A stretch of DNA of 26,047 nt, from the IMG/VR virus record IMGVR_UViG_3300030117_008059, positions 1 to 26,047 of that record, one strand, 5' to 3'. A program made the position numbers and the translations under genes. The notes beneath the pieces were generated by a model that was given only the letters and a program-made list of their open reading frames with translations, did not search any database and was not told where the DNA came from. Positions 23,098-25,999 of the stretch are shown here, piece by piece (positions within the stretch are counted from its first letter, which is position 1; every line of letters starts with the position of its first letter). This DNA comes from a virus.

Positions 23098-24291
23098 TTG
23101 ATTTTTCAGGCGCTTGACTCGAAAGAAGAGTGTTTCGGGATTTTTGCTGATGGTAGGCTGATTTTCGACAATCAGCCCGAAAACCTCTCAGCGACATGGA
23201 AGTACTCACCCTCAGTTTTTTCACAAAAGGAAATAGAGTATGCGTATGTGTTATCTAGCGGCGCTACACTATCAGAAATGTGTCCAGAATTTCTTGAAGA
23301 AGAATGGAGCGCTGCCGAAAGCAAAATGAAGGCTTTTTTTCGCTCTTTTTCTTGTGCCAAAGTCTCTCTTGACGAAAATTGTTTTTTCGACATGGTGCCA
23401 AATAAGTTTTTGCACGACTATTATTCACTTCGAAACGAAATCACAAGACACACGCTACAAACATGCAAAAAGCAAAAAAACTACAACTTTCTGGCGTCAG
23501 TGCACGAAATGATAGAAACCATAGCAAGTCAGAAGCTCAATATAGATTCAAACGCTTTGAACAAGAAAATGCATCAAATAAAAACGAGAAGCTTTTCACA
23601 AAAATTAGTAAAAATTAGTCCTTTTGTGCGATATAATATGTTTGGTTCTAAGACGGGAAGATTGACGAACGTAAAAAGGACTTTCCCCATTTTAACGATG
23701 GACAAGGAACATCGCTGCGTGATTAAGCCAAAAAATGACTTATTTGTTGAACTAGACTATAACGGAGCAGAAATAAGAACTCTGTTGGCTCTTTCTGGAA
23801 AAGAGCAACCTGTTGGAGATATCCACCAGTGGAATGTAGAGAATCTGACTTCTGGAAATACATCTCGACACGAAATGAAAGAGAGGTTTTTTGCTTGGCT
23901 TTACAATCCTTCAGCGAGAGACGAAGCAATAGAAAAGCATTACGATAGAAACGTTTCAGACGACTTTTGGGACGGGGATATTGTCTCGACTCCTTACGGT
24001 AGAGAGATTCCAGCTGACAAACATCATTCTCTAAATTATTTAATCCAGTCAACTACGAACGACTTGGTTTTGGAGAACGCTTTGAAGATATTTGACTACC
24101 TATCCGACAAAGAGACAAATATTGCATTTACGGTTCATGACTCTGTGGTTCTTGATTTTAAGGCTAGCGAATTTAAGAGTCTTTTACCCATTGTTGAGAT
24201 GTTCGAAAATACTAGGTTTGGAAACTTTAAAGCAAACGTGAGCGCCGGCAAGGATTACGGAAATCTTAAGGAGATAGCATGCAAACGATAG
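23098..24291 (+). CDS. polA-like: Compact family A DNA polymerase lacking a recognisable exonuclease domain
   Basis: The 397-residue product contains a polymerase I core: NMFGSKTGRLTNVKRTFPIL (template/thumb motif), motif A VELDYNGAEIRTLLAL (D220, E225, R227), motif B RHEMKERFFAWLYN (R257, K261, F265, Y269) and motif C VHDSVV (H347, D348). Both metal-binding Asp residues are present. F265 matches Phe762 of E. coli Pol I; Ser replaces the usual Glu after the motif C Asp; and Asn replaces the Gly after Tyr in motif B. Residues 1-90 show no exonuclease DxE motif, so proofreading would have to come from elsewhere. E. coli Klenow is about 605 residues and T7 polymerase about 704. The start is TTG with GGAG 8 nt upstream. 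The end overlaps the next gene by 13 nt. T4 itself uses a family B polymerase, so this is a notable departure. It could be the replicase or an accessory polymerase. Confidence 0.88.
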   Translation: MIFQALDSKEECFGIFADGRLIFDNQPENLSATWKYSPSVFSQKEIEYAYVLSSGATLSEMCPEFLEEEWSAAESKMKAFFRSFSCAKVSLDENCFFDMVPNKFLHDYYSLRNEITRHTLQTCKKQKNYNFLASVHEMIETIASQKLNIDSNALNKKMHQIKTRSFSQKLVKISPFVRYNMFGSKTGRLTNVKRTFPILTMDKEHRCVIKPKNDLFVELDYNGAEIRTLLALSGKEQPVGDIHQWNVENLTSGNTSRHEMKERFFAWLYNPSARDEAIEKHYDRNVSDDFWDGDIVSTPYGREIPADKHHSLNYLIQSTTNDLVLENALKIFDYLSDKETNIAFTVHDSVVLDFKASEFKSLLPIVEMFENTRFGNFKANVSAGKDYGNLKEIACKR

Positions 24292-25130
24292 TAGGTGTAG
24301 GCACGGCAGGGTGCAACATAGCAAGAAAGTTTGAAAACTACCCACAATACAAAGTACTAAAGGTGGACTCAGAAGATGTAAAAGAAAAGCGGTATTTAAA
24401 GCTCCCCGTGTATGATACCCCGGAAGAATATGAGGCGCATGAAGCTAAAACTGGAAATTTCTTCAGAGGCGTGTCGGATGAGAGTGTTTTATTTGTTCTT
24501 TGCGGAGCCAGCACTATATCGGGGATATCTTTAGTTCTCATGGAGAAATTAGTAAAGAAAGGTTGTGGTGTACAGGTTTTATATATTTATCCAGAAGTAG
24601 ACTTGATGGGTGAATCTAAAACACTTCAAGAGAGGGTGGCGCGAAATGTGCTTCAACAGTACGCTAGATCGGGAGCGCTGGGTAGGATATACATGATATC
24701 TAATATAGAGCTGGAAAAGATGATAGATAACATAACGATTATGAACTACCATGAGAGCTTGAATGAGATGTTGGTGTCGACAGTTCATATGATTAATGTG
24801 TTTAACAACACGAAGTCGGTATCTGATACTTTTTCTCGCCCTGTGCCTTCAGCAAAGATATCAACTTATGGATTTGTCGATTTTAGCACAGGGGAAGAAA
24901 AAATGTTTTTTCCTATTGACAACATAAGAGAAATTAGGTATTATTACGGTATACCTAAAAGCAAGTTGGAGACTGAAGCGCATCTTTTTAGAAAAATTGT
25001 AGATCAAGTAAAATCTAGAAAAACAGAAAATATAAAAGTGAGTTATGGCATATTCGCAACAGACTATGAACACGAATATGTATATATGGTAGCTCATTCT
25101 TCCAGAATTCAAGAAATCGAGAAAAATTAA
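24279..25130 (+). CDS. FtsZ/tubulin-superfamily-like protein with degenerate GTPase signature
   Basis: The 283-residue product begins QTIVGVGTAGCNIA (G6-A15), close to the first nucleotide-binding loop of FtsZ (GVGGAGGNAV). It continues like the FtsZ GTPase domain: YKVLKVDSEDV (FtsZ IAxNTDxQ), VLFVLCGASTISGISLVLME (FtsZ FVTAGMGGGTGTGAAPVIAE), GVQVLYIYP, a VARNVLQQYARSGALGRIYM region followed by SNIELEKMI (FtsZ VDTLIxIPNDRLL), and an H7-like helix LNEMLVSTVHMINVF with N162. The signature GGGTGSG is reduced to GASTISG (76-82), keeping G, T, S, G. The T7 catalytic loop NxDxxD is not clear (NNTKSVSDTF). A C-terminal beta-rich region (195-275) follows. A plain Rossmann protein is the alternative. 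AAGGAG lies 5 nt before the ATG; the gene overlaps the polymerase. Filament formation, phage centring or a replication-linked role are all unproven. Confidence 0.66.
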   Translation: MQTIVGVGTAGCNIARKFENYPQYKVLKVDSEDVKEKRYLKLPVYDTPEEYEAHEAKTGNFFRGVSDESVLFVLCGASTISGISLVLMEKLVKKGCGVQVLYIYPEVDLMGESKTLQERVARNVLQQYARSGALGRIYMISNIELEKMIDNITIMNYHESLNEMLVSTVHMINVFNNTKSVSDTFSRPVPSAKISTYGFVDFSTGEEKMFFPIDNIREIRYYYGIPKSKLETEAHLFRKIVDQVKSRKTENIKVSYGIFATDYEHEYVYMVAHSSRIQEIEKN

Positions 25131-25137
25131 AAAGTCC

Positions 25138-25166
25138 TTGATATTTGAGGACAGATATTGTATAAT
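25138..25166 (+). promoter_or_regulatory. Consensus sigma70-type promoter for the ssDNA-binding protein gene
   Basis: TTGATA (25138-25143) and a perfect TATAAT (25161-25166) are separated by exactly 17 nt. Transcription would start near 25173, giving a leader of about 62 nt. This is the only full -35/-10 promoter that I find in the window. It fits early expression by unmodified host RNA polymerase, in contrast to the -10-only boxes before the sheath and tube genes. Confidence 0.75.
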
Positions 25167-25176
25167 AATTGCAGTT

Positions 25177-25216
25177 AGTCGGGAAATTTGCCGACTTGCT
25201 TTAGCCGATTGAGCAA
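25177..25216 (+). promoter_or_regulatory. Structured leader of the ssb gene; possible autoregulatory operator
   Basis: AGTCGG (25177-25182) can pair with CCGACT (25191-25196) or, with one G-U pair, with CCGATT (25205-25210). The second site lies in the loop of another hairpin, TTGCT (25196-25200) with AGCAA (25212-25216). The two arrangements are mutually exclusive or could form a pseudoknot. An unstructured A-rich run and AAGGAG follow directly. T4 gp32 represses its own translation through a leader pseudoknot next to an unstructured A/U-rich ribosome site, so the analogy is close; function here is inference. Confidence 0.45.
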
Positions 25217-25234
25217 AAAAATAAGGAGTACAAA

Positions 25235-25999
25235 ATGGCTATTGATATTGAGAAAATGAAACAAAAGCTGAATACCTTGCAAGGCAAGGATACCGGTAAG
25301 AAGGTTTTTTGGCGTCCAAACGATGGAGAGAATAATCTCCGTATTGTTCCGACTGCCGATGGTGATCCCTTCAAGGAGCGATGGTTCCACTACAACGTGG
25401 CAAAGGGAGGTTTTCTTTGCCCGAAGCGTAATTTTGGAGACGGATGCCCTGTGTGCGATTTCGGAAATAAACTCTGGAACGAAGGCACTGAGGAGAGCAA
25501 GAGACTGGCAAAGGACATGTTTGCAAAGCAGAGGTTCTTCTCCCCAGTTTTGGTTCGCGGAGAAGAGAACGAAGGAGTGAGAGTTTGGGGGTATGGAAAG
25601 ACAGCCTATCAGAAGCTTTTGAATATTGTTCTGGATCCGGACTATGGCGATATCACCGATCCGGACGATGGTAACGATCTTAAGATTATGTATGGAAAGG
25701 CGCCTGGCGCATCTTTTCCCACTACAGACATTCGCCCTCGTCCTCGCAAGACAGTTCTTTGCGACGATAACGTCGGTGGCGACGAGCGCTGTGCAGAATT
25801 GCTTGAGACTGTACCTAACTTTGAAACCCTGTTCGAGCGCAAGACGACAGAGGAAGTGGGGCAGCTTTTGGATACTTTCCTGTCTACTGACGGCGGCACA
25901 GGCGAAGTTGAGCGTTTTGGTACCACCACTACGACAACCACTACGACGGGCGAAACGGATGCTGTTGAGGCAGCATTTAACGATTTGCTCAACAGTTAA
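25235..25999 (+). CDS. gp32: Single-stranded DNA-binding protein, gp32-like
   Basis: The 254-residue product has KKVFWRPNDGENNLRIVP, then FKERWFHYNVAKGGFLCPKR and DGCPVCDF. H52, C62, C71 and C74 reproduce the H-x-C-x-C-x2-C zinc site of T4 gp32 (H64, C77, C87, C90) with slightly shorter spacings. The WGYGKTAYQKLL and LDPDYGDITDPDDGNDL parts belong to the OB-type core. After the core come a nine-Thr tract and a short acidic tail (GETDAVEAAFNDLLNS), matching the acidic protein-interaction tail of gp32. It would coat single strands in replication, repair and recombination and contact polymerase. AAGGAG precedes the ATG. Arg codons are mostly CGN (11 of 14 by hand count), unlike the two genes before it, which suggests high expression. 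Slightly shorter than T4 gp32 (301 residues). Confidence 0.93.
   Translation: MAIDIEKMKQKLNTLQGKDTGKKVFWRPNDGENNLRIVPTADGDPFKERWFHYNVAKGGFLCPKRNFGDGCPVCDFGNKLWNEGTEESKRLAKDMFAKQRFFSPVLVRGEENEGVRVWGYGKTAYQKLLNIVLDPDYGDITDPDDGNDLKIMYGKAPGASFPTTDIRPRPRKTVLCDDNVGGDERCAELLETVPNFETLFERKTTEEVGQLLDTFLSTDGGTGEVERFGTTTTTTTTTGETDAVEAAFNDLLNS

Follow-up and report, generated by a model that had tools for sequence, protein, structure and literature searches.

A conserved hairpin at the ssb start in uncultivated T4-like phages, a candidate RNA family

We describe a hairpin, P1, in the leader of a phage gene for a gp32-family single-stranded-DNA-binding protein (SSB). Within a large, mostly marine group of uncultivated T4-like bacteriophages, this RNA element is found almost exclusively directly upstream of ssb, where it probably acts as a control switch. 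It is a candidate RNA family that Rfam 15 does not contain: comparison gave no match at the gathering score and only chance-level matches (E 2-7), and we found no earlier description of the hairpin in the open-access literature, in a search that was not exhaustive.

The ssb gene and its leader

The window, by which we mean the whole stretch of DNA analysed, is 26,047 bases long (virus record IMGVR_UViG_3300030117_008059, positions 1 to 26,047). It is a fragment of a T4-like phage, with genes for a T4-type baseplate protein, tail tube, sheath and tape-measure protein. The ssb gene lies at its right end, with its ATG at 25235 (Table 1), and the product is 28% identical to T4 gp32 across 104 aa. 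A profile of this SSB had no match among the sequences of solved structures, and an AlphaFold model of it was set aside (mean pLDDT 53.6). The ORF just 5ʹ of ssb (24279-25130) has a C-terminal end that recurs beside ssb in several lineages. An FtsZ/tubulin-like GVGTAGCN motif was spotted in it by eye, and the ORF is without Pfam, PHROG or PDB support. Farther upstream, a 397-aa protein (23098-24291) matches DNA polymerase A (PF00476) in its C-terminal polymerase part only, and looks like a split or shortened polymerase.

Table 1. Features of the ssb gene and its leader in the window
Feature	Position	Strand	Basis
gp32-family SSB, 254 aa	25235..25999	+	PF08804 E=1.6e-14, phrog_1192 E=2.2e-25
Sigma70-like promoter TTGATA-17-TATAAT	25138..25166	+	11/12 consensus score
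Hairpin P1 (AG/CU base, U.G, U.U mismatch, 6 bp AGUCGG/CCGACU, 8-nt loop)	25173..25200	+	covariation, energy, covariance model
8-nt loop GAAAUUUG, consensus R-A-N-A-U-U-N-R	25183..25190	+	position counts, 112 distinct leaders
Conserved 3ʹ flank CUUUAGCC (CUNUARCY)	25199..25206	+	conservation; UAGCC predicted to pair with GGCUA 25237-25241
GAGCAAAAAAA, conserved G-W-G-Y-A plus A-tract in the window's clade	25211..25221	+	leader comparison
Shine-Dalgarno AAGGAG	25223..25228	+	sequence

A preliminary description of this DNA had proposed a consensus promoter, a 62-nt leader and a ribosome site. All three hold: the promoter is near-consensus, the leader runs from 25173 to 25234, and a Shine-Dalgarno sequence precedes the ATG. 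Among 112 related leaders, 94 have a promoter scoring at least 9/12 just 5ʹ of the hairpin, and in 70 of these 94 exactly 6 nt separate the end of the -10 element from the AG that begins the hairpin. With this spacing, the transcript would start at or next to the A of the AG. Hence, in most lineages P1 sits at the predicted 5ʹ end of the mRNA, the start site being predicted from the -10 distance alone. The spacing between stem and AUG is 19-55 nt across the 112 leaders. The A-tract between the structure and the ribosome site has about 5-8 residues in the window's clade and is short and variable in other lineages, so that the A-rich linker is specific to that clade.

Structure and conservation of P1

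A single architecture is common to nearly all related leaders. It begins with AG and an 8-bp stem, whose loop has 8 nt and the consensus RANAUUNR, and continues with the stem's other arm, a bulged A, CU and NUARCY. The bulged A is optional, and the window's clade has a U.U mismatch in its place. In the window, AGTCGG pairs with CCGACT, as had been proposed, with arms at 25177-25182 and 25191-25196 enclosing the loop. The preliminary description had overlooked the AG/CU base, with which the hairpin reaches 25173-25200, and the conservation of the flank UUAGCC and the tract GAGCAAAAAAA. The free energy of P1 is -11.3 kcal/mol (25173-25200) against -4.0 in shuffles (z = -3.84), and its core pairs have probabilities of 0.95-1.0. 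The covariance model scores the window's P1 at 69.1 bits, the window leader itself being within the training set. The leaders L234, L239 and L243 read CGG-GAGATTTA-CCG, with the bulged A shifted to 3 bp below the loop and the loop kept. In L203, L217, L218, L219, L246 and L247, a further short hairpin can form locally 3ʹ of P1 (GGC..GCC, GCC..GGC or GGGTAGCCACCC).

Relatives were collected by an IMG/VR protein search (46 loci), by a protein-independent DNA pattern (109 stretches) and by an SSB-alignment search, which gave a more distant set, mostly of ~50-60% identity. The leaders of the relatives were read directly. The stem sequences are almost wholly different across lineages (for example GGTCGG, CAAGATGA, ACGATCAG, GCAGATGG, CACTAGGG), and two-sided changes are present at 8 of the 10 P1 pairs among 26 leaders close to the window. 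In 43 diverse leaders, 98.8% of cells in P1 are paired, a value that is biased upward since these leaders were picked for carrying the hairpin. In the same set, double-change cells number 138 against 43.3 in shuffles, and covariation is 0.881 against 0.263 in shuffles and at most 0.185 in slid controls. Among the stem cells of the 112 leaders, 92 are G.U or U.G and none is A.C or C.A; many of the U.G cells go back to a single pair inherited within the window's clade. The presence of G.U and absence of A.C indicate selection on the sense RNA, not on the DNA duplex or an antisense RNA. The loop and base hardly vary, whereas the stem is unconstrained in sequence; with its flank fixed as well, P1 has the appearance of a hairpin recognised by a protein. 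One ancient RNA element is shared by the leaders of related phages.

The preliminary description had envisaged a two-state pseudoknot, in which AGTCGG alternates between CCGACT and CCGATT (25205-25210), the latter within a hairpin TTGCT/AGCAA. The required letters exist in the window. However, all six AGTCGG/CCGATT pairs can form in only one of 77 clade leaders, that of the window itself; conservation of the pairing equals the shuffled mean, and the nearest relatives (97% SSB identity) read CCCATT at the site. The probability of this pairing is ~0 in the Vienna nested ensemble, whose scoring leaves out pseudoknots, and its energy alone is -5.3 kcal/mol, against -11.4 for P1. The surrounding hairpin TTGCT/AGCAA fares no better, with a pair probability of ~0.003 and uncompensated changes on its 5ʹ side. 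For its shorter form, TGCT/AGCA, the letters are mostly compatible (TGCT with TGCA, 3 of 4 pairs, in 50 of the 77 leaders), but changes on the 5ʹ side again go uncompensated and the pairing is unsupported. We also considered a loop-to-tail pseudoknot, UUUG/CAAA, which is broken by the loops AUUAG and AUUCG; pseudoknots other than AGTCGG/CCGATT were inspected by eye.

Covariation among the leaders therefore strongly supports the simple hairpin, while the second pairing has none and is missing from almost all relatives, and so fails the covariation check that the preliminary description had itself set. Since that pairing is found in 1 of 77 leaders and the second hairpin lacks covariation, a pseudoknot or two-state switch is unsupported as a conserved mechanism, and we regard it as highly improbable. 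The proposal of a gp32-style autoregulatory leader survives in part: the gene is a gp32-family ssb with a conserved, covarying element near its ribosome site, which fits autogenous control, but the competing pairings and the pseudoknot are unsupported. In short, the preliminary description had found a real and probably regulatory RNA and given it the wrong structure.

Distribution of P1

P1 occurs in 25 of 30 SSB clusters (80% identity) that were not selected for the hairpin, with covariance model E-values reaching 1e-14; a few of these clusters, L234 among them, are a poor match to the canonical form. A pattern scan independent of SSB placed 106 of 109 matches directly 5ʹ of an ssb start; a script assigned 105 of these, and L090, which it had missed, was recognised as an ssb by inspection. 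The remaining three are L127, on the same contig as L025 and before a GHKL ATPase gene adjoining ssb, and two copies of one unrelated GC-rich sequence. On the GC-rich contigs L055 and L102, the match lies away from ssb within a longer perfect stem (CCCGGGGGTCAG...CTGACCCCCGGG) and is probably chance or another hairpin. Whole-contig covariance searches found a match in 30 of 30 contigs and then in 29 of 37 further virus contigs, with one strong site per contig except in G010 (L036) and G057 (L248). This near-exclusive attachment to ssb, with one strong site, means that P1 is not a general promoter-linked or mRNA-wide feature.

In G010, the second copy precedes a gene for a GHKL-type ATPase (PF13589, below the family cut-off). 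Second copies that comprise both promoter and hairpin lie at L025:217-266 and L036:1062-1111, directly 5ʹ of GHKL (HATPase_c_3) ATPase genes adjoining ssb, and co-regulation or local duplication are possible explanations. The L248 leader (G057:C1:4560-4626) has tandem hairpins before ssb; the canonical base and flank are in the second only, and the other is weak. A WOR-3 MAG chromosome (L263; CP070664.1) has this SSB (58% identity) together with the hairpin, which suggests phage sequence within, or mis-binned with, the MAG.

Five of the 30 clusters (L208, L231, L235, L244 and L257) and the more distant SSBs that we checked are without the hairpin, and hence it is dispensable. The lineages without it are scattered on the SSB tree, where they are weakly resolved. 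We did not find the hairpin in the leaders or whole genomes of S-PM2, Syn1, S-CAM1 and Mel-JY01, or in the leader of LysYB2. Flavobacterium immuto has a weak model match alone (E=0.016), distant from its ssb.

Function of P1 and comparison with known systems

What is the functional significance of a hairpin so closely tied to one gene? Since P1 is attached almost only to ssb, the simplest candidate for its reader is SSB itself. For the gp32 proteins of T4 and RB69, autogenous repression is proven; their operators have diverged in sequence, and each is reported to combine a pseudoknot with A+U-rich sequence containing UUAA(A) repeats (PMC535899, PMC3014915). A review of T4 states that RB49 is without the pseudoknot and asks for study of diverse phages (PMC3014915). 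Self-repression from such diverged leaders, and the case of RB49, lead us to favour a pseudoknot-free autogenous operator. We put at about even the chance that P1 is a translational operator for SSB that acts as in T4 gene 32 through a different architecture. Sequence comparison establishes the RNA element, its strand, its near-exclusive link to ssb, its predicted place near the transcription start and the lack of a conserved pseudoknot; that P1 is read by a protein, by SSB in particular, and with repression as the outcome, we infer. In the mechanism we propose, SSB in excess of the available ssDNA would bind the loop, base and flank of P1; the bound SSB would then spread over or block the unstructured A-rich stretch and the Shine-Dalgarno site, and initiation would stop. 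The lineages without the hairpin and the clade-specific nature of the A-rich linker count against an operator, and the predicted 5ʹ-end position in most lineages would suit an mRNA stabiliser too.

As a stabiliser, a hairpin starting at +1 would shield the ssb mRNA from 5ʹ-end-dependent decay and give high SSB output. SSBs are required in large amounts, and the hairpin would start at about +1 in those 70 of 94 promoter-bearing leaders with the fixed spacing. P1 would thereby resemble the stabilising hairpins of the ompA type, with which it shares a predicted position at the very 5ʹ terminus of the message. However, the loop, bulge and flank of P1 are conserved in sequence, unlike those of the ompA type, and a generic stabiliser needs no fixed loop size or sequence and no conserved flank. 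It would also be expected at other genes, yet P1 is nearly confined to ssb. Furthermore, the stop codon of the preceding gene contains the start of the hairpin in L205, where the interval scanned yielded no promoter, and L229 shares this arrangement by eye. We consider a stabilising role unlikely.

Specific recognition, to which the fixed loop, base and flank attest, could be by a protein other than SSB, from phage or host (such as the phage DNA polymerase; compare the hairpin operator of T4 gp43), or by a small ligand. Indeed, given the copies before two GHKL ATPase genes, a regulated gene may encode something other than the reader. Against this, the site is almost always and only at ssb, both exceptions adjoin ssb, and autogenous control is the simplest account; for a ligand switch, a single hairpin of 28 nt is small. 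On balance, another reader seems unlikely. The inverted repeat immediately 3ʹ of the promoter might instead work at the start site as DNA, by binding a repressor or forming a cruciform. This we judge very improbable, given that the arm sequence is free across lineages with pairing retained, that G.U occurs and A.C never does, and that the loop and the one-sided 3ʹ flank are asymmetric.

An autogenous SSB operator at P1 would share with T4/RB69 gene 32 the gene family, the position in the 5ʹ leader near the ribosome site and perhaps, in the window's clade, the order of a structured RNA followed by an unstructured A-rich stretch. It would differ in being a lone covarying hairpin whose loop is fixed at 8 nt, with an AG/CU(A) base and no supported pseudoknot. 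A search of the T4 genome with model R2 gave no match up to E = 5, and the T4 leader, read directly, has no P1-like element. The gene 43 (DNA polymerase) operator of T4/RB69 is a pseudoknot-free hairpin with a sequence-conserved loop ~40 nt 5ʹ of the start codon (PMC3014915). P1 is likewise a pseudoknot-free hairpin with a conserved loop before a replication gene, but the gene is ssb, the loop is RANAUUNR rather than -UAAC-, and the stem is longer (8+2 bp). Another structured element near ssb, the STAXI RNA motif of enterobacteria (RF01728), is a pseudoknot repeated two or three times (PMC2864571), whereas P1 is a single hairpin in phage leaders without an Rfam match.

The 3ʹ flank may have a further role. 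In the window, UAGCC (25202-25206) has a predicted pairing partner in GGCUA (25237-25241) at the start codon, with pair probabilities of 0.88-1.0, and lineages with GGU as second codon tend to ACCC where those with GCN tend to GCC. When own and swapped combinations of flank and start codon were compared, duplex energy gave p=0.022 and simple complementarity p=0.065, in tests that were post hoc and confounded by phylogeny; we therefore treat the pairing as a weak lead and do not claim it. As a tentative possibility, the new family would be a pseudoknot-free octaloop-and-bulge SSB operator, across many uncultivated T4-like phages, in which the start codon is moreover paired with the flank UARCC(C)A (as AGCCA/UGGCU or ACCCA/UGGGU), coupling SSB binding with start-codon masking.

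Whether gp32-type self-control exists outside T4 and RB69, and in what form, is an open question in the T4 literature (PMC3014915). P1 offers a well-defined RNA at a single site, its conserved positions are known, and some lineages naturally do without it. Hence, gp32-type self-control beyond T4 and RB69 becomes directly testable.
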